This document shows positions 4,686 to 39,679 of a stretch of 64,000 nucleotides of DNA, one piece after another (positions within the stretch are counted from its first letter, which is position 1; each line of letters opens with the position of its first letter). Origin of the DNA: Croceivirga sp. (GTDB taxonomy: Bacteria; Bacteroidota; Bacteroidia; Flavobacteriales; Flavobacteriaceae); NCBI GenBank assembly GCA_028284935.1, contig JANQQQ010000008.1, positions 434,001-498,000 of the forward strand, in the 5' to 3' direction. Both the position numbers and the translations under genes were made by a program. The notes beneath the pieces were generated by a model. The model ran no database searches. It saw only the letters and a list, made by a program, of their open reading frames with translations, and was not told where the DNA came from.

Positions 4686-6142
4686 AGGGTTACTTTAAAA
4701 ATCGTGTGGTTTTTGTTCGGCATTAGTTCTAGGTCACCACCATGTTTATTGATGATTTTTTTGGAATAAAACAGTCCAATGCCAAAACCTTTTACGTCAT
4801 GGCGGTTTCCCGTAGGTACCCGGTAGAATTTTTCGAAGATTTTATCGCGTTGTGCTGGGTCTATTGACCCACCATTGTCGGCAACGCTGATTTCAATCCC
4901 GTCCAAAAGGGCGTTGATATTCACTTCAATCTGGTCGCCCCCATACTTAATGGCATTGTCGATGAGGTTGGCGATTGCGTTTTCAAAATGGAACACATCA
5001 ATATCACGTAGCAGTTCTGGTACATTGGTACTGAACGTCAATTCTTTCTCTGTGGTAATCAAGCGGTATTTCCCAACCAATTGTGTCATAAGTTGAACGA
5101 TATCCGCAGGCTCTCTGTTCAACAAGAGTTTATCGTTATCCAAAGTGGCCGTTTCCAACAGCTTTTCTACCATCTGGTGCAGTTTTTGCAACTGTTGCTT
5201 CGAGATGTCAAGATACTTTTCGGTCTTTGAAGGGTCGTTGGCCTCATTAAAGCTCTTGATGCCCTCAATGGCCGTAGAAACAGTGGCAATGGGGGTTTTG
5301 AACTCGTGGGTAATATTGCTGATAAGGTCGTTTTTGATTTCGGCCAGTTGTTTTTGTTTTTGGATGACATGTAAAAGAAAGAACAAGCTTCCGATGATTA
5401 GGACTGAAAGCAAGATGGATAGCAAGATGCCCGTTAGACTGCGTTTCAAAACCACTAGGGTGGGATTGTTAAATTTTAATTGTAAGGTTTCGTTGGGAGG
5501 CAGGTAGGTTGATTTTGAAAAAGTGGATAAGGGCAACTCCCTATTGGCAGTGGTCTGCCAGTTGAAGGTGCTGTCCTCTGTAGTGTGGGTAAATGCATAT
5601 AGGATGTCGATGTTCTTACGGTAAAGTTCTTTGTTAAAAAAGTTTTGAAGCTTTGGAAAATCAATGGTGTCCCTAACAAATGATACAATAATTTTGTTGG
5701 CCAACCCCTGAAGGTTTCGGATACTATCTGCTGCTTTTCCCCTAAATACGGAGACCGCAGTCATATTTCCCAATGTATCAACGGTAACACCTGAAGATGA
5801 ATCCAATATCTGCGTAAAGGCGCGTCTTTTACGTGACATGGTAAGTGTATCGTTATTTAATTGGAGAAAGAGGGAATCGATTTTACCAGGTAAGATGCTT
5901 CCAATCTCACTAGCTATAGTATTACTTGGTGTTTCCTTGCCCACAAAAGCCATAATATTCATTTTGGCGATTTCAGCAAAATACGCTTCGATGCCATTGT
6001 CAAGACTGATCTGCACTTCATTGATCAATCGCTGTTTGTTGCTCTGATAATTTTGAATATTCCAATAGACCTGTATGGCTATAGTAATGGCAATAGTGAT
6101 ACCAATCAAATACGCCAATCTGTTGAACTTGTTTTGTTTCAC
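4682..6142 (-). CDS. Membrane sensor histidine kinase
   Basis: The 486-residue kinase has one membrane helix at about residues 8-27, a periplasmic sensor region (about 28-235) and a second helix at about 236-258. A dimerisation/phosphoacceptor domain follows with H279 in SNITHEFKTPIA. The ATPase domain carries the N box (N396 in NLIDNAIKYGG), the D422-N423-G424 motif and the GFGIGL loop at 452-457. No HAMP or PAS domain is evident. The start is GTG at 6142. It forms an operon with the response regulator, in the kinase-first order. The divergent neighbours are a GLPGLI protein and an outer-membrane receptor, so envelope stress or import is a plausible theme, but the signal is unknown. Confidence 0.93.
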   Translation of the reverse strand: MKQNKFNRLAYLIGITIAITIAIQVYWNIQNYQSNKQRLINEVQISLDNGIEAYFAEIAKMNIMAFVGKETPSNTIASEIGSILPGKIDSLFLQLNNDTLTMSRKRRAFTQILDSSSGVTVDTLGNMTAVSVFRGKAADSIRNLQGLANKIIVSFVRDTIDFPKLQNFFNKELYRKNIDILYAFTHTTEDSTFNWQTTANRELPLSTFSKSTYLPPNETLQLKFNNPTLVVLKRSLTGILLSILLSVLIIGSLFFLLHVIQKQKQLAEIKNDLISNITHEFKTPIATVSTAIEGIKSFNEANDPSKTEKYLDISKQQLQKLHQMVEKLLETATLDNDKLLLNREPADIVQLMTQLVGKYRLITTEKELTFSTNVPELLRDIDVFHFENAIANLIDNAIKYGGDQIEVNINALLDGIEISVADNGGSIDPAQRDKIFEKFYRVPTGNRHDVKGFGIGLFYSKKIINKHGGDLELMPNKNHTIFKVTL

Positions 6143-9996: not shown

Positions 9997-11250
9997 ATGC
10001 CCTATTTATTTACTTCAGAATCTGTAAGTGAAGGACACCCCGATAAGATTGCGGACCAAATTAGTGATGCATTACTGGATAATTTTTTGGCCTTTGATTC
10101 CAATAGTAAGGTGGCTTGCGAAACCTTGGTGACCACTGGGCAGGTAGTGCTGGCCGGGGAAGTGAAGAGCGATACCTATCTTGACGTGCAGACTATTGCA
10201 CGCGAGACCATCAATAAAATTGGCTACACAAAAGGAGCGTATCAATTCAGTGGTGATTCTTGTGGCGTCATATCCTTGATTCATGAACAGTCACAGGACA
10301 TCAATCAAGGAGTAGATCGGGCAACCAAAGAAGAGCAAGGTGCAGGCGACCAAGGTATGATGTTTGGATACGCCAGCAATGAGACCGAGAATTTCATGCC
10401 CTTAGCGTTGGATATTTCCCATAAAATTTTAAAAACCCTAGCCGAACTTCGAAGGGATGGAAAGGAGATTACCTACCTCCGTCCAGATGCGAAGGCACAG
10501 GTTACCATTGAATATTCTGATGCCAATGAACCACAACGAATAGACACTATTGTAGTTTCGACCCAACATGATGATTTTGATGATGATGAGGTGATGTTGG
10601 CAAAAATCAAAAAGGATATCATCGGGATTTTGATTCCTAAGGTTAGGGCACAATTCCCAGAAAAGGTCCAACGGCTTTTTAATGACAGGATTACCTATCA
10701 TATCAATCCTACCGGTAAGTTTGTCATAGGGGGCCCCCACGGGGATGCAGGACTTACGGGTCGAAAAATAATTGTGGATACTTATGGTGGTAAAGGCGCC
10801 CATGGCGGGGGTGCCTTTAGCGGAAAGGATCCAAGCAAAGTGGACCGAAGCGCGGCATACGCTGCGCGGCACGCAGCCAAAAATTTGGTTGCTGCCGGTG
10901 TTGCTGATGAAATTTTGGTACAGGTAAGTTATGCCATTGGGGTTGTAGAACCTACCTCCATTTTTGTGGATACCTATGGCACGGCCAAGGTAAATTTGAC
11001 CGATGGAGAGATTGCTACAAAGGTGGCCCAACTTTTTGATATGAAACCTTATTCCATCGAGACGAGGTTGAAACTGCGAAATCCTATGTATTCAGAAACA
11101 GCGGCCTATGGGCATTTTGGAAAAAACCCCCATACCGTCACCAAGGTTTTTGAGTCCCCTTATAATGGTCGTATTGAAAAAGAAGTGGAACTCTTCACAT
11201 GGGAAAAGCTGGATATTGTTGATACCGTGAAAACTGCTTTTAATATCTAG
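9997..11250 (+). CDS. metK: S-adenosylmethionine synthetase
   Basis: The 417-residue cytosolic enzyme makes SAM from methionine and ATP. The first signature, SEGHPDK, is at residues 11-17. [12 protein letters not shown] (about 117-128), [13 protein letters not shown] and the loop [17 protein letters not shown] are all present and intact. The length is slightly above that of E. coli MetK (384). The leader carries a candidate SAM-II riboswitch and a consensus -7 box, so the enzyme is likely repressed by its own product. It is monocistronic as far as can be seen; a repeat-like sequence follows. Confidence 0.97.
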
Positions 11251-31347: not shown

Positions 31348-32055
31348 ATGAAACCATCTTATGCTTTTTGGGGTATGTGCAACATTGTATTGCTATTGTC
31401 ATGTGGTAGTTCCACAGATCCGCTTCCCGAAGAGGAAGAGCAGATTGCACCTCCCGTTGCAGCGACATTGATTTTTCCGGAAGATAATACAGAATGCCAA
31501 GAGGGAACCATTATCAACGATACCCAAAGTAGGCTACTTTTTCAATGGAACGCGTCGGAACATACGGATAGCTATCAAGTTTACCTTAAGCAGTTGGATG
31601 ATGGTACCCAATCGAGCCATGAAAGCAATACCAATGCGTTGGAAATTGCTATTGAAAGGGGAGCACCTTATAGTTGGTCAGTGGTGTCAAAATCTGATGC
31701 GACGGATCAAACCGCCGAAAGTGAGGTTTGGAAATTTTACAATGCCGGCGTGGGAGTGGTCAATCATGCCCCTTTCCCTGCCGATTTACTGAGTCCTGAA
31801 TACAATGAAACCATTGTCGTAAGTTCAGGAAACACTGTGCTCCGCTGGGAAGCATCTGATGTCGATGGTGACATTGTATCCTATGAAGTTTTCTTGGATA
31901 CGAACCACCCACCGGTAACAACCCTGGGAACAACTTCTGAAACCGAAATATCAGTTGAGGTAGCCGCCAATTCAACGTACTATTGGGTGGTTCAGGTAAC
32001 TGATAGTGCAGACAACACTTCTACATCAGATATATTCAGTTTCTCGGTAGAGTAA
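31348..32055 (+). CDS. Surface lipoprotein with two fibronectin-III-like domains
   Basis: The 235-residue product has a lipoprotein signal ending in LLLSCGSS, with the lipidated Cys at residue 19. Two beta-sandwich units follow (about 38-130 and 135-235). Both repeat the pattern of a proline-led strand, LFQWNASEHTDSYQVYL or LRWEASDVDGDIVSYEVFL, and a closing YSWSV/YYWVV strand, as in fibronectin type III or SusE-like domains. It starts 5 bp after the giant surface protein and is surely co-transcribed. A role as a surface partner is inference from this arrangement. Confidence 0.82.
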   Translation: MKPSYAFWGMCNIVLLLSCGSSTDPLPEEEEQIAPPVAATLIFPEDNTECQEGTIINDTQSRLLFQWNASEHTDSYQVYLKQLDDGTQSSHESNTNALEIAIERGAPYSWSVVSKSDATDQTAESEVWKFYNAGVGVVNHAPFPADLLSPEYNETIVVSSGNTVLRWEASDVDGDIVSYEVFLDTNHPPVTTLGTTSETEISVEVAANSTYYWVVQVTDSADNTSTSDIFSFSVE

Positions 32056-32060
32056 AATAC

Positions 32061-32153
32061 CGAAAAATCGCTATAATCATTGGTATGGTACGGGTATCGG
32101 TAGGTTTGGAACATATTGGGGATGTTCAACGATGTATAGTAGGGGTTGGATAA
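32061..32153 (+). pseudogene. 3' remnant of a metZ-like PLP sulfhydrylase gene
   Basis: Right after the lipoprotein stop, one frame reads RKIAIIIGMVRVSVGLEHIG, then DVQRCIVGVG and a stop (TAA 32151-32153). The core GMVRVSVGLEH is identical to the C-terminus of MetZ at about 24836-24868, while the codons differ mainly at third positions. The upstream part of the gene is absent, having been replaced by the lipoprotein gene end. The fragment has no start and is too short to be functional. Its differences from metZ show that it is not a recent duplicate; it could descend from any close member of this PLP family. Confidence 0.75.
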
Positions 32154-32171
32154 TGAAGTATTTTTTATTTA

Positions 32172-33107
32172 TCAATTCAAACTTCGGTACTCGCTGGGGC
32201 TCATTCCTGTTTTGTTCTTAAAGATTTTGGAGAAGTGTTGTGAATACTCATAACCGAGACCATAGGCTATTTCACCCACCGATTCCGTGGTGCGTAAGAG
32301 ACGATTCTTTGCCACGTTCATTAAAAAATCATCAATATGGACCTTAGCGCTTTTACCGGTTTCCTTCTTTAGGAGGTCACTCAAATACTTAGGCGACATG
32401 TTCAGATGTTTTCCGCAGTAGTCTACCGAAGGAATGCCAATATTCAATTGATTTCCATTGGAATAATAATCCTTTAATAGCTGTTCGAATTTTGTTAGGA
32501 TATCTTTATTAAGATTGGTTCGGGTATAGAACTGACGATCATAGTAACGCACACAGTAGTCCAATAACAGCTCAATATTTGAGATGATCAACTTTTGACT
32601 GTGGCGGTCAATGTTTTGGCCGTATTCCTTTTCGATTTTAGCAATCAATTCATTGAGCGTTTGTTTTTCCCCTTCGGAAACATGTAGGGCCTCGGTAATA
32701 TCGTAGGAGAAAAACGAATAATGGTCAATACTGCTTCCCAATTCAGACTTTCGAATTAAATCGGGATGGAACAACAAGGCCCAACCCGGATCCTTGGCCT
32801 TGGATTCATGGCCATCGTAGCTCATTACCTGTCCCGGTTTAATGAACACCATAGAGCCCTCTTGAAAATCGTAGGAACTACGTCCGTACCCCATACTGCC
32901 CTGGGTCTCGTTTTTTTGGGTGATGCAATACATGCCAAAAGAGCAACGCACGTGGTGGTATTCCTGCTTGATTTTGGCATCCATAAACCGAATTACCGAC
33001 ACCAATGGATGTTTTGGCCTAGCCAGTCCAAAGACATCATGCATGTCCGAAATGCTCTCTATGTGCACTATTTCCTGCACGCGTTTACTTTTATCGGGAA
33101 TAAACAT
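32172..33107 (-). CDS. AraC family regulator of the 32-38 kb cluster
   Basis: The 311-residue protein has an N-terminal sensor region with cupin-like features (FGMYCITQKNE, FIKPGQVMSYDGHE) and a C-terminal double HTH. The last third shows VDYCGKHLNMSPKYLSDLLK for HTH 1, and SVGEIAYGLGYEYSQHFSKI with FKNKTGMSPSEYR for HTH 2. It is the last gene of a minus-strand group, 70 bp beyond the SRPBCC gene. Three copies of a 39-bp motif precede the other transcription units of the cluster and are the natural candidates for its binding sites. The inducer is unknown. Confidence 0.92.
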   Translation of the reverse strand: MFIPDKSKRVQEIVHIESISDMHDVFGLARPKHPLVSVIRFMDAKIKQEYHHVRCSFGMYCITQKNETQGSMGYGRSSYDFQEGSMVFIKPGQVMSYDGHESKAKDPGWALLFHPDLIRKSELGSSIDHYSFFSYDITEALHVSEGEKQTLNELIAKIEKEYGQNIDRHSQKLIISNIELLLDYCVRYYDRQFYTRTNLNKDILTKFEQLLKDYYSNGNQLNIGIPSVDYCGKHLNMSPKYLSDLLKKETGKSAKVHIDDFLMNVAKNRLLRTTESVGEIAYGLGYEYSQHFSKIFKNKTGMSPSEYRSLN

Positions 33108-33177
33108 AACAGTTTTTTTAATACGAAACCCTAAGGTTCAAATGTTTCTCAATCGTTGCTAGGACTTTGGTCGTGAA

Positions 33178-33669
33178 TTAGTTAAGGATGTGCCGGCGTA
33201 GGGATTCATTCAAATCGGTATAGGCCTGTTGTACCCAACCCGTATCCCAAAATAGGACAACTAGTCCCTTAAAATCTTCGTGGATGGTCACCTTGGTCGT
33301 ATTCCCAACAGGTTCTAAAATATAGCGATGGTCATAGGTAAATATCCCCGGAATGCCTCCTCGCTGATTCAGTAATTTCAATGGAATCAACTTTGCTACC
33401 GTCATTCCTATTTCGATGGAACCACCATCGGGTTGCACCAACTTATAGGTCAGTTTATTACCCTGTTCAATTTCTCCTTTAATGGGAACCAATACCCCAT
33501 TCCATTTTTTATACCCTTCTTCGTTCATTAAAACTTCCCAAATTTGTTGAGGATTCGCCTCGATTACAAGCTCCGTACGCACTGACTTTCCGCTTAAAAG
33601 GTATAAGAGCGCCAGGATGGCAATGAACATCGATATTGCTAAGGTTCGTTTCCAGCTTAAAACTGCCAT
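33178..33669 (-). CDS. Membrane-anchored SRPBCC (START/Bet v1-like) protein
   Basis: The 163-residue product has an N-terminal membrane helix (about residues 10-27, ISMFIAILALLYLLSG) followed by an SRPBCC domain. ELVIEANPQQIWEVLMNEEG is the typical first strand and helix of this ligand-binding fold, and TKVTIHEDFKGLVV is the late strand pair. The fold encloses a hydrophobic cavity for lipids or other small ligands, and no catalytic residue can be assigned. It is the third gene of an operon with the SDR gene (12 bp gap) and a soluble SRPBCC protein, which hints at work on one hydrophobic substrate. Confidence 0.85.
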   Translation of the reverse strand: MAVLSWKRTLAISMFIAILALLYLLSGKSVRTELVIEANPQQIWEVLMNEEGYKKWNGVLVPIKGEIEQGNKLTYKLVQPDGGSIEIGMTVAKLIPLKLLNQRGGIPGIFTYDHRYILEPVGNTTKVTIHEDFKGLVVLFWDTGWVQQAYTDLNESLRRHILN

Positions 33670-33681
33670 AAGGTTGTGCGA

Positions 33682-34590
33682 TTATAAAAAGGATTGGCCT
33701 GTCATCTCTTCGGACAGTTGCCAAAGTCTTTCTGCCACATCTTTTCGTTTTGAATAGTCGCTTCGCCTTGCAAAACCAACCTTTCCCTTGAACTCCTTAA
33801 AACCTTGGGGTCCAAAATATTCACCTCCCTTTACATCCGGACTTAAAGCGGCAAACAAGGCGGGTTTCGCTGCTGCAGTGTTTGAATTGAGAAGTAATGG
33901 TGATAGCGTTTTGAACATATAGTACCTAAATCCTTTGGACATTTCCGTAAAAAGTCCGGAAAAAGAACCTCCAGGGTGCACAGCGGATGCAATCAGGTTT
34001 TTGCCGGACTTTTTGAGCCGTCGGTTCAGTTCATCGGCAAACATTAGATTCGCCAATTTGGACTGCCCATAAACAGCCTCGGCATCATCAATATGTTCCC
34101 CGTTCAAGTCGTCAAAGTGGATTTTTGCGGTTTTATGGGCCAGACTGCTCAAGGCCACAATACGCGAAGCGGAATAATCGGGCATTACGTCAAGCAACAG
34201 ATTGGTCAATAAAAAATGACCTAAATGGTTGGTGGCAAATTGCAGTTCTATCCCGGCTGCATTCTTTTTGCCGGAGTATATCAGCACCCCAGCATTGTTG
34301 ATGAGCACATCCAATTGGGAATAGTGATCTTTAAAGTTTTTGGCGAAAGCCCTAACACTGTCCAAATCGCTCAAATCCAATTGTAGGGTGTCCAAATCAG
34401 CATTGGGCAGTTTTTGCAGGATATCCGCTTTGGCCTTTTCTGCTTTGGCCATATTGCGGCAGGCCATAACCACTTTAAAACCGTATTGGGCCATGCCCAA
34501 GGTAGTTTCAAAGCCAATACCGTTGTTGGCACCGGTAACAATGGCTATCCTACCTTTTTGTGAAGGAACATTTTTTAGTTTGAAATCCAT
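33682..34590 (-). CDS. Short-chain dehydrogenase/reductase
   Basis: The 302-residue oxidoreductase has the NAD(P)-binding TGANNGIGFE at residues 19-28, the NNAG motif, the catalytic Ser in VALSSLAHKT and the Tyr/Lys pair in VYGQSKLAN. The central NAG and YxxxK spacing and the C-terminal GGEYFGPQGFKEFKG resemble the retinol dehydrogenase/WW-domain oxidoreductase-like SDRs. Arg in MACRNMAKAEK suggests NADP(H) use. It sits between two SRPBCC genes (gaps of 21 and 12 bp) in an operon that starts at 35103 with an AraC-cluster operator upstream. Confidence 0.92.
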   Translation of the reverse strand: MDFKLKNVPSQKGRIAIVTGANNGIGFETTLGMAQYGFKVVMACRNMAKAEKAKADILQKLPNADLDTLQLDLSDLDSVRAFAKNFKDHYSQLDVLINNAGVLIYSGKKNAAGIELQFATNHLGHFLLTNLLLDVMPDYSASRIVALSSLAHKTAKIHFDDLNGEHIDDAEAVYGQSKLANLMFADELNRRLKKSGKNLIASAVHPGGSFSGLFTEMSKGFRYYMFKTLSPLLLNSNTAAAKPALFAALSPDVKGGEYFGPQGFKEFKGKVGFARRSDYSKRKDVAERLWQLSEEMTGQSFL

Positions 34591-34611
34591 TTTCTTCTGG
34601 TATTGTGCTTG

Positions 34612-35103
34612 TTATGGGTTAAATCGTTGTTCTACCTCGGCTTTTAATTTTCGATTGAAAGCCTGATATCCCTCTGCATACATCTTTGATAGGTTGCCGC
34701 CCATTAACCAGGTGACACCTTTCATGATTTCGTCCGATTGTACGAACCGAGTTTTGCCGTCGCCGGTGGGTTCTACCCTAAAGTGATGGTTGTCCCGAAT
34801 ACCGCCCGGGCCTTTTTCCGCCCAATAAAATTCCTTTCCATCCTCTACCGAAATGGTATGCGCAATGGTGTTTAGCTTCTCTTTTTTAGGATTGGTCTGA
34901 AAGATGGCCGTAATTTTTTCCCCATCCTTAATTTCCCCTTTGATATCCACCAAAAAAGTGGCCCAATTTTTATAGGAGGCCGTATCGGTCAACACCGACC
35001 AAACCTGTTCCGGGGTTGCATCAATGACGATATCGGTGTAAATGGTGCGGTGGGAGGCACTTAGCTTTTCTACTTTTACGTTTTCTTTACTGGAAGTTGT
35101 CAT
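34612..35103 (-). CDS. Soluble SRPBCC domain protein
   Basis: The 163-residue product has no signal or membrane helix. The SRPBCC/polyketide-cyclase-like fold is seen in YTDIVIDATPEQVWSVLTDT near residue 21, HHFRVEPTGDGKTRFVQSDE in the middle and the long C-terminal helix YAEGYQAFNRKLKAEVEQRF. It is the first gene of the operon that continues with the SDR and the membrane-anchored SRPBCC protein. A 39-bp motif lies 57 bp before its start. The ligand is unknown. It is similar in plan but not close in sequence to the SRPBCC protein at 33178, so the pair is not a recent duplication. Confidence 0.88.
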   Translation of the reverse strand: MTTSSKENVKVEKLSASHRTIYTDIVIDATPEQVWSVLTDTASYKNWATFLVDIKGEIKDGEKITAIFQTNPKKEKLNTIAHTISVEDGKEFYWAEKGPGGIRDNHHFRVEPTGDGKTRFVQSDEIMKGVTWLMGGNLSKMYAEGYQAFNRKLKAEVEQRFNP

Positions 35104-35159
35104 ACGGCATATTGCTTGTGGTTCAATTACTACCGTAAAATTCCTTCCTTACCAATAGA

Positions 35160-35198
35160 TTACTGTAAAGATTTCTCTAAACATTGTATATATTTTCC
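35160..35198 (-). promoter_or_regulatory. AraC-cluster operator A
   Basis: This is one of three copies of a 39-bp motif. The plus-strand form ends TTGTATATATTTTCC and carries AGATTTCTCT in its middle. It lies 57 bp upstream of the first SRPBCC gene. At the spacing seen for operators B and C the -7 position reads GAATTTTA on the minus strand (35143-35136), which is only a partial match to TAnnTTTG, so this promoter would depend on an activator. Confidence 0.7.
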
Positions 35199-35241
35199 AG
35201 AAGTTAGGTGAGGGCGGGGTTATATCACCAGATACGCCCGG

Positions 35242-35892
35242 TTAGGAGTACGACAAAATATCCTTGTTTTCCAATATTTCGGAAGCCGCGCCATTCAAAC
35301 CCACATGGAACATCGCCAGAGCCAATTCGGTCGATTGGATACTGCTGTTGGGACCCATCCTTCGGATCAAGGGGTACAATGCCCTTGAGATACGATACAT
35401 CATGTTGGGTTCTTTACGTGGGGTCACCGGATAAATGTATCCTGGTCGGAACGTATAAAAATCCAATCCTAAGGCCGAAATTTGGTTTTCGGCCATCCCT
35501 TTGTATTGTGCAAAGGAAGTCCGACTTTTTTCTGAACGGTCCGCTCCGGCACCACTCAATAAACATAGGGTGGCCTTGGGGTTACCTTCCTTAATTGCTT
35601 TTGCGAAAGCAACCGCGTAGTCTACGGTGATTTCCTTGAATTTTTTATTGGATACCTGTCCCGTATAAACGCCAATACAAAAAAAGGCAATATCCACATG
35701 TTCGAAAAGATCTTTATGTTTGGAAAAATCCCCAAAATCGGCAATGACCACCTCGTTTAACTTCGGATGCTCACGGTTTGATTTTTTACGGACCAATGAG
35801 GTTACTTGCCCTATTTCTGAAGAGGATAGGCAATGCTCAAAGATTAAATTTCCTATCATGCCTGATGCTCCTGCTATAATTGCGTTTTTCAT
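35242..35892 (-). CDS. NAD(P)-binding protein, atypical SDR (NmrA/HTATIP2-like)
   Basis: The 216-residue product starts with an NAD(P)-binding GASGMIGN (residues 8-15) in MKNAIIAGASGMIG. VTSLVRKKSN then suggests an NADP-binding Arg/Lys. DIAFFCIGVYTG, LCLLSGAGAD and FYTFRPGYIYP follow the pattern of atypical SDRs such as HTATIP2-like proteins, which usually lack the YxxxK pair. It is the second gene of a two-gene unit with the small membrane protein (78 bp gap). The role is unknown; the context suggests the same physiological purpose as the SDR/SRPBCC operon. Confidence 0.88.
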   Translation of the reverse strand: MKNAIIAGASGMIGNLIFEHCLSSSEIGQVTSLVRKKSNREHPKLNEVVIADFGDFSKHKDLFEHVDIAFFCIGVYTGQVSNKKFKEITVDYAVAFAKAIKEGNPKATLCLLSGAGADRSEKSRTSFAQYKGMAENQISALGLDFYTFRPGYIYPVTPRKEPNMMYRISRALYPLIRRMGPNSSIQSTELALAMFHVGLNGAASEILENKDILSYS

Positions 35893-35970
35893 TTGTTAAA
35901 TGTAGTATCCTGATAATAAATATATTGCAAAGATTCGTGCAGACGAAACTGTTGCACTCCGTATGAATTA

Positions 35971-36375
35971 TTAAAAATGCTTGAAGCGCGATTTGGACAA
36001 GGAGGAACGCAATAAAAATGCCGAATGAACCATGTACGAGGCTATTTCAGTGAAGTAGGCCGAAAAACTCCATTGCGCCGACATAAAATCAAAGCTTTCA
36101 ATGGTGCACAAAACGGCCAGATTGGAGAACAGCAAAACCATAACAAAAGGGGTCCATTTCCATTTGGTCAGATATCCCCATAGAAAAACACTGGCGGTCA
36201 AGGTAATGAGCAGCCAATGCACAAATTGCACCCCACTTGGATAAGCATCGTTCTGTAATTTGATAAAAGGCTTGACTCCGGTGAAATATTCAAAGAATCC
36301 GCCTATGCCCCAAATCAACATTCCTATGCACATCAGGAGCAAAAGGGTCATGTAAATTTTTGATACCAGTTGCAT
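35971..36375 (-). CDS. Small four-helix membrane protein of unknown function
   Basis: The 134-residue product has four predicted membrane helices: about residues 8-28 (MTLLLLMCIGMLIWGIGGFF), 50-68, 74-92 and 108-125. Pro/Gly residues and the short loops resemble DoxX-like or other small integral membrane proteins, but I do not recognise the family. The C-terminus is basic (RSSLSKSRFKHF). It is the first gene of a two-gene unit and has an AraC-cluster operator 43 bp upstream. Confidence 0.75.
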   Translation of the reverse strand: MQLVSKIYMTLLLLMCIGMLIWGIGGFFEYFTGVKPFIKLQNDAYPSGVQFVHWLLITLTASVFLWGYLTKWKWTPFVMVLLFSNLAVLCTIESFDFMSAQWSFSAYFTEIASYMVHSAFLLRSSLSKSRFKHF

Positions 36376-36417
36376 TTGTTCTTTTTCTTTTGACGAAACT
36401 AATGTGCTACACGAAAA

Positions 36418-36456
36418 TCACCGTATAGATTTCTCTGAAGTTTGTATATGTTTTCC
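36418..36456 (-). promoter_or_regulatory. AraC-cluster operator B
   Basis: This is the second copy of the 39-bp motif (plus-strand middle AGATTTCTCT, end TTTGTATATGTTTTCC). A -7-like TAGTTTCG lies on the minus strand at 36401-36394, leaving exactly 16 bp between box and operator, as at operator C. It is 43 bp upstream of the small membrane protein gene. Confidence 0.72.
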
Positions 36457-36482
36457 TGTGTGCACTTTACCATCCTTCGGAA

Positions 36483-37628
36483 TTACCACCACACCGTGGT
36501 CGGTTTTGGCAGTTCGCCAATTAGGATGGGCTCCCCAATCTGTGGTGCAACCAGTGGTATTTGCAGTTCTTTGGCTTTTTTGGAAACCCGCTCAATGGGG
36601 TCGGTCCAGGAATGCAAGGCCAGTTTAAAGGCTCCCCAATGAATGGGCATTATGGCCTGGGCTCCAACATCCACTCCGGCTTGTGCAGTTTCTTCAGGAA
36701 ACATATGGATATCGGGCCACATTTTATTGTATTGACCGCATTCTAGCATGGCAAAATCAAACGGCCCGTATTGTGCTCCAATTTGTTTAAAATGGGGTCC
36801 GTAGCCACTGTCCCCACTAAAAAACAGGGCGGTGCTATCCGACTTGATGACCCAGGAACTCCACAAGGTACTTTGGCCATTGGTAAACTTCCGGCCCGAA
36901 AAATGTTGGGCAGGGGTGCAAGCCAATTGCAGATCTTTAAAGGTGGTTTCTTCCCACCAGTCCATTTCTTTAATGATATCTGGATACACCCCCCAAGCTT
37001 CTAAGTGGACACCAACACCAAGGGGAACAAAATAGGCTTCTACCTTGTCCTTGAGCTTTTTGATGGAACCATAATCCAGATGGTCATAATGGTCGTGCGA
37101 AATTACCACAGCATCAATTTTAGGTAGTTTTTCGATGTCAATTGGCAAATTTAAGTTGAAGCGTTTGGCACCCATCCATTGATGGGGCGCGGGTACGGTA
37201 CCAAGCATGGGATCGATCAAGATATTTTTCCCATCCACTTGTAATAAAAAGGCCGAATGTCCAAACCAAATGAGACGGGCCCCTTTCTGGTAGGAAGCGA
37301 TGTTCGTTGAATCTATTTTTTGAACGGCTAGGTCCTTATTAGGTCTTCCGTTTTCTACCTCTTCGAAGAAAAACTTTCGCCCTATGGATACCATCTTGGA
37401 AAAACTGGCCGCTTCAGGGATTTCCTCTTTGGTATTGATGAACTTTCCGTTGTTGAACTGCTGCGAAGAAATGTATAGGGCCTGCCGTTCTTGGTCCACA
37501 TCGCCGCCAAAGGAAGGATAGAAATTAACAAAGGCTAAATAGATAAGGACCAACGAAACAATGAGTATGGCTATGGACAGAAGCATTCGCGTTACTATTT
37601 TTTTGAGTTTTTTCAAGGATGTAAACAT
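36483..37628 (-). CDS. MBL-fold metallohydrolase, membrane-anchored (NAPE-PLD/UlaG-like)
   Basis: The 381-residue product has an N-terminal membrane helix (about residues 13-35) and a metallo-beta-lactamase domain. Metal ligands are H178, H180, D182 and H183 in SHDHYDHLDY. GHSAFLLQVDGKNILIDP (about 123-140) is the leading strand pair and FFSGDSGYG holds the bridging Asp. IMPIHWGAF carries the last His. The pattern is that of the NAPE-hydrolysing phospholipase D-like/UlaG-like subgroup, so a phospholipid or lactone substrate is plausible but unproven. It is a single-gene unit with operator C 62 bp upstream. Confidence 0.9.
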   Translation of the reverse strand: MFTSLKKLKKIVTRMLLSIAILIVSLVLIYLAFVNFYPSFGGDVDQERQALYISSQQFNNGKFINTKEEIPEAASFSKMVSIGRKFFFEEVENGRPNKDLAVQKIDSTNIASYQKGARLIWFGHSAFLLQVDGKNILIDPMLGTVPAPHQWMGAKRFNLNLPIDIEKLPKIDAVVISHDHYDHLDYGSIKKLKDKVEAYFVPLGVGVHLEAWGVYPDIIKEMDWWEETTFKDLQLACTPAQHFSGRKFTNGQSTLWSSWVIKSDSTALFFSGDSGYGPHFKQIGAQYGPFDFAMLECGQYNKMWPDIHMFPEETAQAGVDVGAQAIMPIHWGAFKLALHSWTDPIERVSKKAKELQIPLVAPQIGEPILIGELPKPTTVWW

Positions 37629-37689
37629 TCAGAGGAATCATCAACGTACCTCTTTGTTTAGGTCACAAAATTAAGGCCGTAAGTTAATT

Positions 37690-37728
37690 TGAAGATATAC
37701 ATTTTACGGATGTTTGTATATATTTTCC
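37690..37728 (-). promoter_or_regulatory. AraC-cluster operator C with -7 box
   Basis: This third copy of the motif (plus-strand end TTTGTATATATTTTCC) precedes the MBL gene. A perfect -7 box TAATTTTG lies on the minus strand at 37673-37666, again 16 bp from the operator edge. This places the operator over the -33 region, as for an activator that contacts RNA polymerase. Confidence 0.75.
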
Positions 37729-37859
37729 ATCAGTACAAAACTCAGACATTACTGATGTTATTAAGCAGCTTCAAATCCGAATGGAATTCAGCTTTTTTTC
37801 GCTATTTCATTTATTTTGGTTCACTTGTGGTAACAGGGTAATTGTATTAAGAAAAACAA

Positions 37860-38073
37860 TTGGCGAAAATAGAAATCGGCATCATCAATGTATCAAGCCA
37901 CTGGAATTCAGGGCAGCACGCTGATTGTCAATTGACCAGGAAGACCAACGTCCATTCAAGCATGTCCAGAGGTCGTTTTTCCTGCTATTCCCTATTGTAG
38001 TGATTTGATTAATGACCCGTAGATAAGGACAGACCAGAAAGAAATGAAAGTGTATTGACCAAAACAGACCTAA
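37860..38073 (+). pseudogene. Decayed mog copy with internal deletion
   Basis: From TTG 37860 the frame reads LAKIEIGIINVSS, parallel to MEKVKIGIINVSD of Mog. It then jumps to GSTLIVN-stop-PGRPTSIQ and EVVFPAIPYCSDLINDP-stop, ending MKVY-stop-PKQT before TAA at 38071. These match the Mog C-terminal part, with stops at the Leu, Tyr and Arg positions. About 320 bp of the middle are missing; the join lies near 37899. Homology extends upstream: GCTATTTCATTTATTTTGG (37800-37818) parallels the metZ-mog gap at about 24934. The copy is clearly non-functional. Confidence 0.85.
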
Positions 38074-38089
38074 GACAAAATCTCACATG

Positions 38090-39025
38090 CTATTCTTTAT
38101 CGTTGGATAAATTCATTATCCAATCCGTCAAAAGCTTGGGCCATTCCTTCACCAAAGGCATTTGCGGGGCCAAACCAAAACCATGGCCTCCTTGTGGAAA
38201 TATGTGTAAGGCCGTTGGAATATTTTTTTGATGCAGGGCCTGATAAAGTGAAAGACTATTTTCCACAGGTACCCCGGTATCATCACTAGCATGGAACAAG
38301 ATAGTGGGAGCATGGTCATCCCTTATCTGTTTTTCAAGCGAAAAAAAATCAACCCATTGCGTTTCTGTACTTTTTCCCAATAGTGCCTCTTGGGAACCCT
38401 TGTGGGTGGAGGCAGATCCAAATTGAATAACCGGATATAGTAGGACAATAAAATTAGGGCGAGCTTCCATTACATCTATTTCATCATGTGGTTTTATGAG
38501 CTCTTGATCATAGTGTGCCCCCAGACTTGCTGTCAAATGCCCTCCGGCCGAAAATCCCATAATTCCTATTTTATTGGAATCAAGGTTGAGTCCTTCGGCC
38601 ATAGTATGGACCAGTTTTAGTGCACGTTGGGCATCTAAAAGGGGCACCAAATGGTTTTTATGGATAGAAGCGGAAGTGGGTAAACGATATTTAACCACAA
38701 CACCAGCAATTCCTTTGGTGTTGAGCATTTTTGCGATATCCCTACCCTCCCAGTCGTATGCAAGGATGTGATAGCCTCCGCCAGGAAAAATGAGTACACC
38801 ATGCCCAGTGGCATTGGCCTTGCTTGGTAGATATACTTCAATTTCTGGATATTGTACTTTACTGATTCGTAGGATGCCTTCTTTTTGATGGACTTCGGTT
38901 TCGTCGGTTTCAATACGAAATGGTATTTTGTCCGGCCAAAGGGGGACAATGGTATCTTGTGACCATCCTGCGGTATGGACAATAAACGAAAAAATCAAGA
39001 ACGCGTAAAAAGTTTTGTTCATCAT
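38090..39025 (-). CDS. Secreted alpha/beta hydrolase (acetyl-xylan-esterase-like, BD-FAE type)
   Basis: From the start chosen here the 311-residue product has a signal peptide (MMNKTFYAFLIFSFIVHTAG, then WSQD). The fold shows an oxyanion segment LIFPGGGYHILAYDWEG, the nucleophile elbow IGIMGFSAGGHL, an Asp in HASDDTGVPVENS and a His in FPQGGHGFGLA. This is the pattern of the small secreted esterases that deacetylate plant or algal polysaccharides. ATG 39025 is preferred over 39088, since the extra 21 residues would bury the signal peptide and reach into the divergent Rrf2 promoter region. It is convergent with the mog remnant. Confidence 0.88.
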   Translation of the reverse strand: MMNKTFYAFLIFSFIVHTAGWSQDTIVPLWPDKIPFRIETDETEVHQKEGILRISKVQYPEIEVYLPSKANATGHGVLIFPGGGYHILAYDWEGRDIAKMLNTKGIAGVVVKYRLPTSASIHKNHLVPLLDAQRALKLVHTMAEGLNLDSNKIGIMGFSAGGHLTASLGAHYDQELIKPHDEIDVMEARPNFIVLLYPVIQFGSASTHKGSQEALLGKSTETQWVDFFSLEKQIRDDHAPTILFHASDDTGVPVENSLSLYQALHQKNIPTALHIFPQGGHGFGLAPQMPLVKEWPKLLTDWIMNLSNDKE

Positions 39026-39110
39026 CTTAAAAATAAAGAAACTCAAGGAATACCGAAACGCCAAAAAACACCATTGGATAATAACCATAGTTTTTGATTA
39101 TCTTCGGAAG

Positions 39111-39524: not shown

Positions 39525-39572
39525 CCACACCTAATTATCAATACGCCAATTTCACATTAAGTTTTCTAATTA

Positions 39573-39589
39573 TCTATTAAAACTATAGG
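39573..39589 (+). promoter_or_regulatory. Palindromic operator 1 of the sulfate operon
   Basis: TCTAT-N7-ATAGG followed by ATAA. It is the first of three copies of the motif YCTAY-TAAA-NNN-ATAGG-ATAA and lies 80 bp upstream of copy 2. The tight conservation over about 21 bp points to one regulator, probably the adjacent Rrf2 protein. Confidence 0.7.
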
Positions 39590-39639
39590 ATAAACTAATA
39601 TTTATCGTGACTTTAACTTTCCCATTGACTGAAAAGGTT

Positions 39640-39669
39640 TATGTTTGTATTTCCTACTAAATCTATAGG
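39640..39669 (+). promoter_or_regulatory. Sulfate operon promoter (-7 box) and operator 2
   Basis: TATGTTTG at 39640-39647 is a full match to TAnnTTTG. Operator 2, CCTAC-N7-ATAGG (39653-39669), follows at the expected transcription start, a classic repressor position. The DUF2061 gene starts 10 bp further on, so the leader is very short. Confidence 0.72.
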
Positions 39670-39679
39670 ATAATAAATT

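Follow-up and report, generated by a model that had tools for sequence, protein, structure and literature searches.

We report that a repeated element in a 64,000-nucleotide stretch of a Croceivirga sp. genome (G000:C16:434001-498000, hereafter the window; the genome spans 4.23 Mb in 38 contigs) very probably serves as operator for an AraC-family protein (gene at 32172-33107) that would bind it in tandem and activate three transcription units, its own operon included. The initial annotation had placed a 39-bp motif at 35160-35198, 36418-36456 and 37690-37728 and had proposed that an activator, for example the cluster's AraC protein, would use it; that proposal now gains support from the tandem geometry of the sites, from their abutting the -33 place, from their recurrence at operons of relatives and from half-site letters that change with the recognition helices. 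It had missed that a 13-bp half-site recurs within the motif as a direct repeat with a 21-bp period, and that the AraC gene ends the first unit. The sites, their confinement to the cluster, their conservation, their fixed spacing and the parallel variation of half-sites and helices can all be read directly from the DNA.

Three tandem sites in the window

A repeat search of the window recovered the three copies (copy A, 35159-35198; copy B, 36417-36456; copy C, 37689-37728), with B and C 83% and 65% identical to A over 40 nt. All are read on the minus strand and each faces one minus-strand unit, in agreement with the earlier assignment to SRPBCC-SDR-SRPBCC(-AraC), membrane-NAD(P)-binding and MBL units. 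We rejected the reading of the motif as a single 39-bp word; it is a tandem in which a 13-base half-site (GnnAAAnnTnTAy) is followed by its next copy exactly 21 bp on, each site beginning on the minus strand with GGAAAAyATATACAA and continuing with a looser half. At all three sites the -7 box lies 21 bp past the end of the proximal half-site, and this is the same place as the 16 bp between motif and TAnnTTTG-like box described earlier, since the 16 bp were counted from the end of the 39-bp motif. The elements are as follows.

35186-35198, minus strand: operator A, distal half-site GGAAAATATATAC (repeat search, half-site alignment and matrix)
35165-35177, minus strand: operator A, proximal half-site GAGAAATCTTTAC, 21 bp from the distal one (half-site alignment and matrix)
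35136-35143, minus strand: promoter A, -7 box GAATTTTA, poor, two mismatches to TAnnTTTG, at +55
36444-36456, minus strand: operator B, distal half-site GGAAAACATATAC (repeat search, half-site alignment and matrix)
36423-36435, minus strand: operator B, proximal half-site GAGAAATCTATAC
36394-36401, minus strand: promoter B, -7 box TAGTTTCG, one mismatch to TAnnTTTG
37716-37728, minus strand: operator C, distal half-site GGAAAATATATAC (repeat search, half-site alignment and matrix)
37695-37707, minus strand: operator C, proximal half-site GTAAAATGTATAT
37666-37673, minus strand: promoter C, -7 box TAATTTTG, exact TAnnTTTG

The weak match at A had already been remarked on, and the place of this box reads GAAATTTG / GAAATTTA in G400, a genome of another genus, and in an Allomuricauda metagenome-assembled genome (MAG). 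None of the three sites has a TTG at the -33 place (offsets 28-41). A promoter and terminator scan of 31900-38200 returned 10 sigma-70-like sites (14.1 in shuffles) and 10 terminator-like ones (7.2 in shuffles), and left the reading unchanged.

Across the whole genome, GGAAAAyATATACAA has three exact matches, all in the cluster and within 2.6 kb, and the 21-bp tandem likewise has three, all in the cluster; the earlier impression of a self-contained regulon holds for exact matches in this genome, where the exact tandem yields no further member elsewhere. At up to two mismatches the 15-mer matches 56 times (35 for a reversed control), and at one mismatch the tandem gains one place elsewhere in the genome (six for the reversed control). 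Two 3-kb loci with one-mismatch matches to the 15-mer (L004 and L005) were rejected as sites: they lack cluster genes, and neither comes within one mismatch of the tandem.

Spacing and conservation in related genomes

The spacing between half-sites is fixed. Searched in plain letters over the window and the loci L061-L078 (about 362 kb), the tandem occurs six times at period 21 and never at the other periods from 13 to 31. A half-site matrix built from those six sites and run over 51 loci (the window, L061-L078 and L139-L170) gave 21 tandem matches at period 21 that scored 20 bits or more (15 of them outside the training set), and 0 or 1 match at each of the periods 17-20 and 22-26. The distance to the -7 box is fixed too: in an unpicked set made up of all 29 matches of 13.5 bits or more in 55 loci, where the -7 box played no part in the score, an exact TAnnTTTG stands at +55 in 15 sites and elsewhere between +36 and +99 just once, at +96 (11 of 23 at +55 when the six training sites are left out). 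Near the expected -33 place a TTG occurs in 4/29 of these sites (offsets 28-41), and in 0/35 listed sites at offsets 28-35. Among those 35 listed sites, some of which were chosen with the box, TAnnTTTG is exact in 24 and within one mismatch in 33. A hand-made table of 27 sites has 16 exact boxes at +55; it adds L065:5963, which had been found with its box, and omits three of the 29 score matches, namely L147:2638 and L155:7584 (both lacking a box) and L167:6156 (with GAAATTTG), so that we base our conclusion on the unpicked set instead.

We also searched the 3 kb before 60 AraC matches for a repeat of at least 9/13 followed 21 bp on by an exact TAnnTTTG. At period 21 this test was passed by 3/10 loci whose AraC is 70% or more identical to the window's, by 20/30 at 50-70% and by 2/20 below 50%, and at each of the other periods from 18 to 24 by at most one locus per identity group. 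Some failures have a site further off or an inexact box (the window, L171 and L139), and in others no site was seen (L154, L156 and L176); the window fails because the box of A is inexact and B and C lie further off. L172, L174 and L177 were dropped from both the upstream and the unpicked-site tests as repeats of genomes already counted.

These spacings bear on whether the copies could be chance matches in AT-rich intergenic DNA. The motif is indeed AT-rich and its reversed control matches more often in 397 family genomes; all three exact matches in this genome nevertheless fall within 2.6 kb, other periods are almost without matches near AraC relatives, and the offset of the -7 box is fixed, which leaves chance a negligible probability.

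The initial annotation had suggested searching this genome and its relatives for the motif, and the tandem, whose exact matches in this genome all lie at the cluster, recurs at operons of AraC relatives across genera. Such relatives number 24 in 60 related genomes (own genome included, E at most 1e-40) and 28 in 397 family genomes (E at most 1e-88), with seven loci among named genomes. Near them, the tandem stands in front of genes like those of the cluster in roughly a dozen genera (one belonging to another family) and also in Cytophagia. Many of the fetched neighbourhoods carry the window's other genes in varied order, and others hold only the AraC of the eight query genes; the arrangements include SRPBCC-SDR-(SRPBCC)-AraC, membrane protein-NAD(P)-binding, AraC-NAD(P)-binding-MBL, SRPBCC-NAD(P)-binding-AraC and SDR (of another type)-AraC-MBL. 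G400 has a near copy of the three-promoter layout, its three sites standing before SRPBCC-MBL, membrane-NAD(P)-binding and SRPBCC-SDR-AraC, and in G028 the first gene that follows the site is araC. The site in G001 is followed by an additional SDR gene (L061:5966-6847) and then by SRPBCC-SDR-SRPBCC-AraC; in G110 a bestrophin-like gene (L140:6503-7534) lies between the cluster's NAD(P)-binding and SRPBCC genes.

Within the genus, the exact tandem is present in 2/11 genomes (this one and G007), at five sites that each precede a cluster unit, and an AraC of 80% or more identity is found in three of the 11 (this genome, G001 and G007). Across the 397 family genomes there are 40 exact tandem matches in 35 genomes. 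Eleven of the 40 (in G000, G400, G110, G028, G243 and G267) have an AraC relative at E 1e-88 or less no more than 5 kb away; the other 29 have none nearby at that threshold, and six of these 29 share one nearly identical sequence, probably one conserved gene.

Could the copies instead be relics of promoter duplication within the cluster, their likeness reflecting common ancestry and not a regulatory role? Some spacer letters recur in promoters A and B (in G400 both have TTGGTA), and the two may come from one ancestral promoter. Pure descent, though, would need half-sites no better conserved than the spacers, which is not what is seen: the spacers differ where half-sites, -7 box and part of the linker are alike, C differs elsewhere, and other genera keep the geometry with different spacer letters. 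We regard this explanation as very improbable.

The module may also have moved between lineages. The AraC proteins of Splendidivirga corallicola (Cytophagia), a Flammeovirgaceae-named MAG and a Saprospiraceae MAG are 81%, 78% and 76% identical to the window's, with RpoB identities in the same genomes of 72, 72 and 73%; within the family, G028 has an RpoB identity of 88% and an AraC identity of 59%. The proteins of S. corallicola and the Flammeovirgaceae MAG group with a Flavobacteriaceae protein (support 95/85), and both genomes keep a site before the membrane-protein gene. This pattern points to a transfer of the module together with its operators, apparently across classes; an old paralogy with loss could also account for it.

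The regulator, its recognition helices and the proposed mechanism

The 311-residue protein is a member of the AraC/XylS family. Its C-terminal DNA-binding domain matches PF12833 (73.6 bits, cut-off 33.6), and its predicted model (mean pLDDT 81, pTM 0.58) combines a beta barrel, long helices and two helix-turn-helix (HTH) motifs, with HTH helices at 239-250 and 289-300. The N-terminal part matched no Pfam family; it is predicted to form a sensor and dimerisation barrel, with strands between 13 and 113 plus long helices. The AraC sensor domain 2arc matches the model (TMt 0.56-0.59, E about 1e-4), as do the RhaR sensors 5u93/5u9e. The top Foldseek ranks are full-length AraC-family proteins (Rns, CsvR and ToxT) at a whole-chain TM of just 0.26-0.36, and parts of the model match better (2arc, RhaR, and the DNA-binding domains of AraC, 2k9s, and MarA); SoxS is a further match to the DNA-binding part. 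An identification as the arabinose regulator AraC itself was rejected (NCBIfam PRK10572, 60.9 bits, cut-off 208).

A tree of 32 AraC proteins resolves into five groups, four strongly supported and group 2 at 93/87. Half-sites mostly end in TATAC in groups 1 and 2, are GGTTTA-like in group 3 and GnATAC in group 4, and are GTGTTA-like in group 5 (one tabulated site); the 21-bp period and the box at +55 hold across groups while these letters differ. The recognition helix of the second motif (HTH2) varies in parallel: QHFSK in all 19 aligned group 1-2 proteins, Q(S/G)(F/L)(N/T)K (QSFNK/QSLNK/QGFTK) in group 3, QYFSK in group 4 (one QYFST) and HYFSR in group 5. In the first motif (HTH1), a residue N goes with T at half-site base 2 in 27/30 half-sites, and K/R does in 9/44. 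In these counts the reading of L152, L157 and L068 is shifted by one base, and the -7 box served as anchor in choosing the clade 3-5 sites, both here and in the list of 35 sites. The protein alignment does not include L143 and L160; L143 entered the HTH1 counts, as did the L147 protein, which is not in the tree.

Covariation of this kind is expected if this protein, and not another, reads the site. The genome does hold 51 AraC-type HTH matches at E 1e-8 or less, and others among them may use 21-bp tandems, so a paralogous AraC protein or a hybrid two-component system encoded elsewhere in the genome might be the one that binds. Weighed against this are the sites found at operons of this AraC clade in many genomes, the letters that change with the clade's helices, and the fact that this AraC, at 80% identity or more, is encoded in both of the genus genomes that have exact tandems; we consider another regulator quite improbable.

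The 311-residue protein is proposed to bind the tandem, and that it would act there as an activator we infer from the position of the sites, the lack of a -33 element and the weak -7 box at promoter A. Two monomers would bind head-to-tail on half-sites exactly 21 bp, or two helical turns, apart, at about -67 to -55 and -46 to -34 if the -7 box is set as -12 to -5. The proximal monomer would take the place of the -33 contact and recruit RNA polymerase, as do AraC at I1-I2 and XylS at Pm. A ligand, perhaps lipophilic or carbonyl-containing, would trigger activation of the three units, SRPBCC-SDR-SRPBCC-araC, membrane protein-NAD(P)-binding protein and the NAPE-PLD-like MBL hydrolase; the first unit ends with araC, so that activation would reinforce itself (positive autoregulation).

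AraC proteins can both repress and activate, AraC itself doing so without sugar, and the sites adjoin the promoter, so that the protein could bind them and repress, or do both. The tandem, however, lies upstream of and abutting the -33 place and not over the -7 box, the rarity of TTG described above suits activator-dependent promoters, and promoter A has a poor box of its own; a repressing role is therefore unlikely, if less so than the other alternatives.

Several observations weigh against activation by this protein through the tandem. The same poor -7 box of promoter A is one. Of the AraC matches of 50% identity or more, 17/40 fail the strict 3-kb test. The parallel between helix and half-site is confounded by descent, the proteins being related and the counts not independent; L152 looks like an independent switch, yet it was read one base out of phase, and HTH1 K regulators can also face T (L141 and L157). 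In the scan of 397 genomes the reversed control was commoner than the tandem (about 76 vs 35 genomes), and because it matches more often only the position of those matches, not their number, is informative. Finally, the Saprospiraceae locus L176 keeps most of the cluster's genes, yet no site there reaches 13.5 bits and a stop codon interrupts the AraC frame (10001-10933).

Gene content, known systems and generality

The three units comprise the following genes.

32172-33107, minus strand: AraC-family regulator, 311 residues, last gene of unit 1 (PF12833, predicted fold); proposed binder of all three operators
33178-33669, minus strand: SRPBCC protein 1 (Polyketide_cyc2 / AHSA1), unit 1 (domain match)
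33682-34590, minus strand: SDR oxidoreductase, unit 1 (NCBIfam PRK06197 subfamily, 335.7 bits, cut-off 268)
34612-35103, minus strand: SRPBCC protein 2, first gene of unit 1 behind operator A (domain match)
35242-35892, minus strand: NAD(P)-binding protein (NAD_binding_10), unit 2 (domain match)
35971-36375, minus strand: 134-residue protein, predicted all-helical, first gene of unit 2 behind operator B
36483-37628, minus strand: MBL-fold hydrolase, unit 3 behind operator C (nearest solved structure NAPE-PLD)

The AraC gene follows the second SRPBCC gene of unit 1 by 70 bp, and the unit presumably forms a single transcript. The SDR protein is structurally nearest to 3rd5 and protochlorophyllide reductases, and the MBL hydrolase matches 4qn9 (NAPE-PLD) at E 1.8e-50; an N-terminal hydrophobic stretch suggests that the latter is membrane-anchored. 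The 134-residue protein has no Pfam or NCBIfam match and its predicted fold no PDB match at E 0.001 (best E 2.8); from its hydrophobic stretches we take it to be a membrane protein. That the set handles a lipophilic carbonyl or lipid-derived compound is a guess, and a rather doubtful one. An esterase-like neighbour (BD-FAE, 38090-39088) has the same orientation and is probably outside the regulon, because no tandem site precedes it. Further on, a 25-bp direct repeat (39569-39593 and 39649-39673, 84%, core CTATAGGATAA, 80 bp apart) precedes sulfate-assimilation-looking genes and follows an Rrf2-like gene (names from reading open reading frames), and its copies are possibly operator copies.

The architecture has known counterparts. 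In E. coli, AraC is an activator at araBAD I1-I2, a 21-bp direct repeat overlapping the -35 place; it resembles the cluster regulator in its sensor barrel and differs in half-site letters and gene set. XylS at Pm of the Pseudomonas TOL plasmid is likewise of the AraC/XylS family and, in the account given in PMC5481539, has two direct-repeat half-sites with a box per HTH, two 15-bp direct repeats to which two monomers bind, the proximal one first and then the distal; as described there it differs in half-site letters (TGCA/GGTA), in its proteobacterial promoter with other sigma factors and in having a known inducer. In Bacteroidota, accounts from 2013 predict direct repeats with on average 21 bp between sites for 16 hybrid AraC-type regulators of B. 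thetaiotaomicron (PMC3878776), and motifs of 21-bp periodicity for AraC-family rhamnose regulators including the Bacteroides RhaR (PMC3870299), the 21 bp being read as two helical turns and motif similarity following the regulator tree. As presented in those accounts, the Bacteroides systems have membrane hybrid two-component (HTCS) or rhamnose regulators of glycan and sugar genes; unlike them, the cluster regulator is a one-component protein of Flavobacteriaceae and beyond, with oxidoreductase, SRPBCC and NAPE-PLD-like genes. No promoter-box distance turned up when the main texts of PMC3878776 and PMC3870299 were searched for terms. Flavobacterium sigmaA promoters, according to PMC9723704, have a -7 box TAnnTTTG at -12 to -5, a sequence that the cluster matches exactly at C, with one mismatch at B and with two at A; the terms AraC and direct repeat are absent from the main text of that paper.

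The initial annotation had known of no description, and for the gene set this stands: our searches of an open-access library (which excludes most subscription papers) found no description of the set or of the fixed -7-box distance, and NAPE-PLD together with AraC gave nothing useful there either. It does not stand for the 21-bp direct-repeat architecture of AraC-type regulators, which was, as far as those accounts go, published in 2013 (PMC3878776, PMC3870299). Already known, then, is the direct-repeat geometry of XylS and the 21-bp one predicted in Bacteroides; new are the regulon, the apparent cross-class transfer and the fixed -7-box distance.

We also scored 39 other AraC-type loci of G000 and G400 (331 kb, 275 exact TAnnTTTG boxes) and 40 control regions (780 kb, 731 boxes) for a repeat 18-24 bp upstream of the box, with the distance free to vary. 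At 9/13 or better, period 21 was found at 12/275 boxes of the AraC-type loci vs 0 to 4 at any one of the remaining periods between 14 and 32, and at 10/13 or better at 6/275 vs 0 to 2; in the control regions the figures for period 21 were 9/731 at 9/13 (other periods 1 to 9) and 0 at 10/13 (others 0 to 5). The numbers are small, and the period-21 half-sites at these other loci are unlike the cluster's; the architecture may be common among AraC-type loci. A tandem with other letters, AACCCA.../AACCTAGGGTCAA, occurs about 21 bp ahead of TAATTTTG both in the AraC-type locus L212 of the window's genome (minus strand, about 3982) and in L231 of G400 (plus strand, about 4249); the two are probably orthologous operators for a different AraC protein. 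In G400, close to a further AraC-type gene, L242 carries on the plus strand at 5344-5400 a direct repeat of 21-bp period that is perfect over 13/13, TTTTCGAACAAAT, ahead of TAAGTTTG.

It is conceivable, and we propose it tentatively as somewhat short of an even chance, that Bacteroidota one-component AraC proteins follow a common grammar, in which a 21-bp tandem ends about 21 bp before TAnnTTTG, no -33 box is present and the letters are set by the recognition helices, with the cluster as a self-contained module moved between classes together with its own sites. The operators for such regulators that we found in the literature are, in the accounts cited above, predictions in Bacteroides; here an operator, its targets and its promoter geometry are proposed for one regulator in a genome with 51 AraC-type HTH matches. 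The constant spacing to the -7 box provides a simple rule for finding more sites, and, if the grammar is true, many unassigned AraC operators would be readable straight from sequence.

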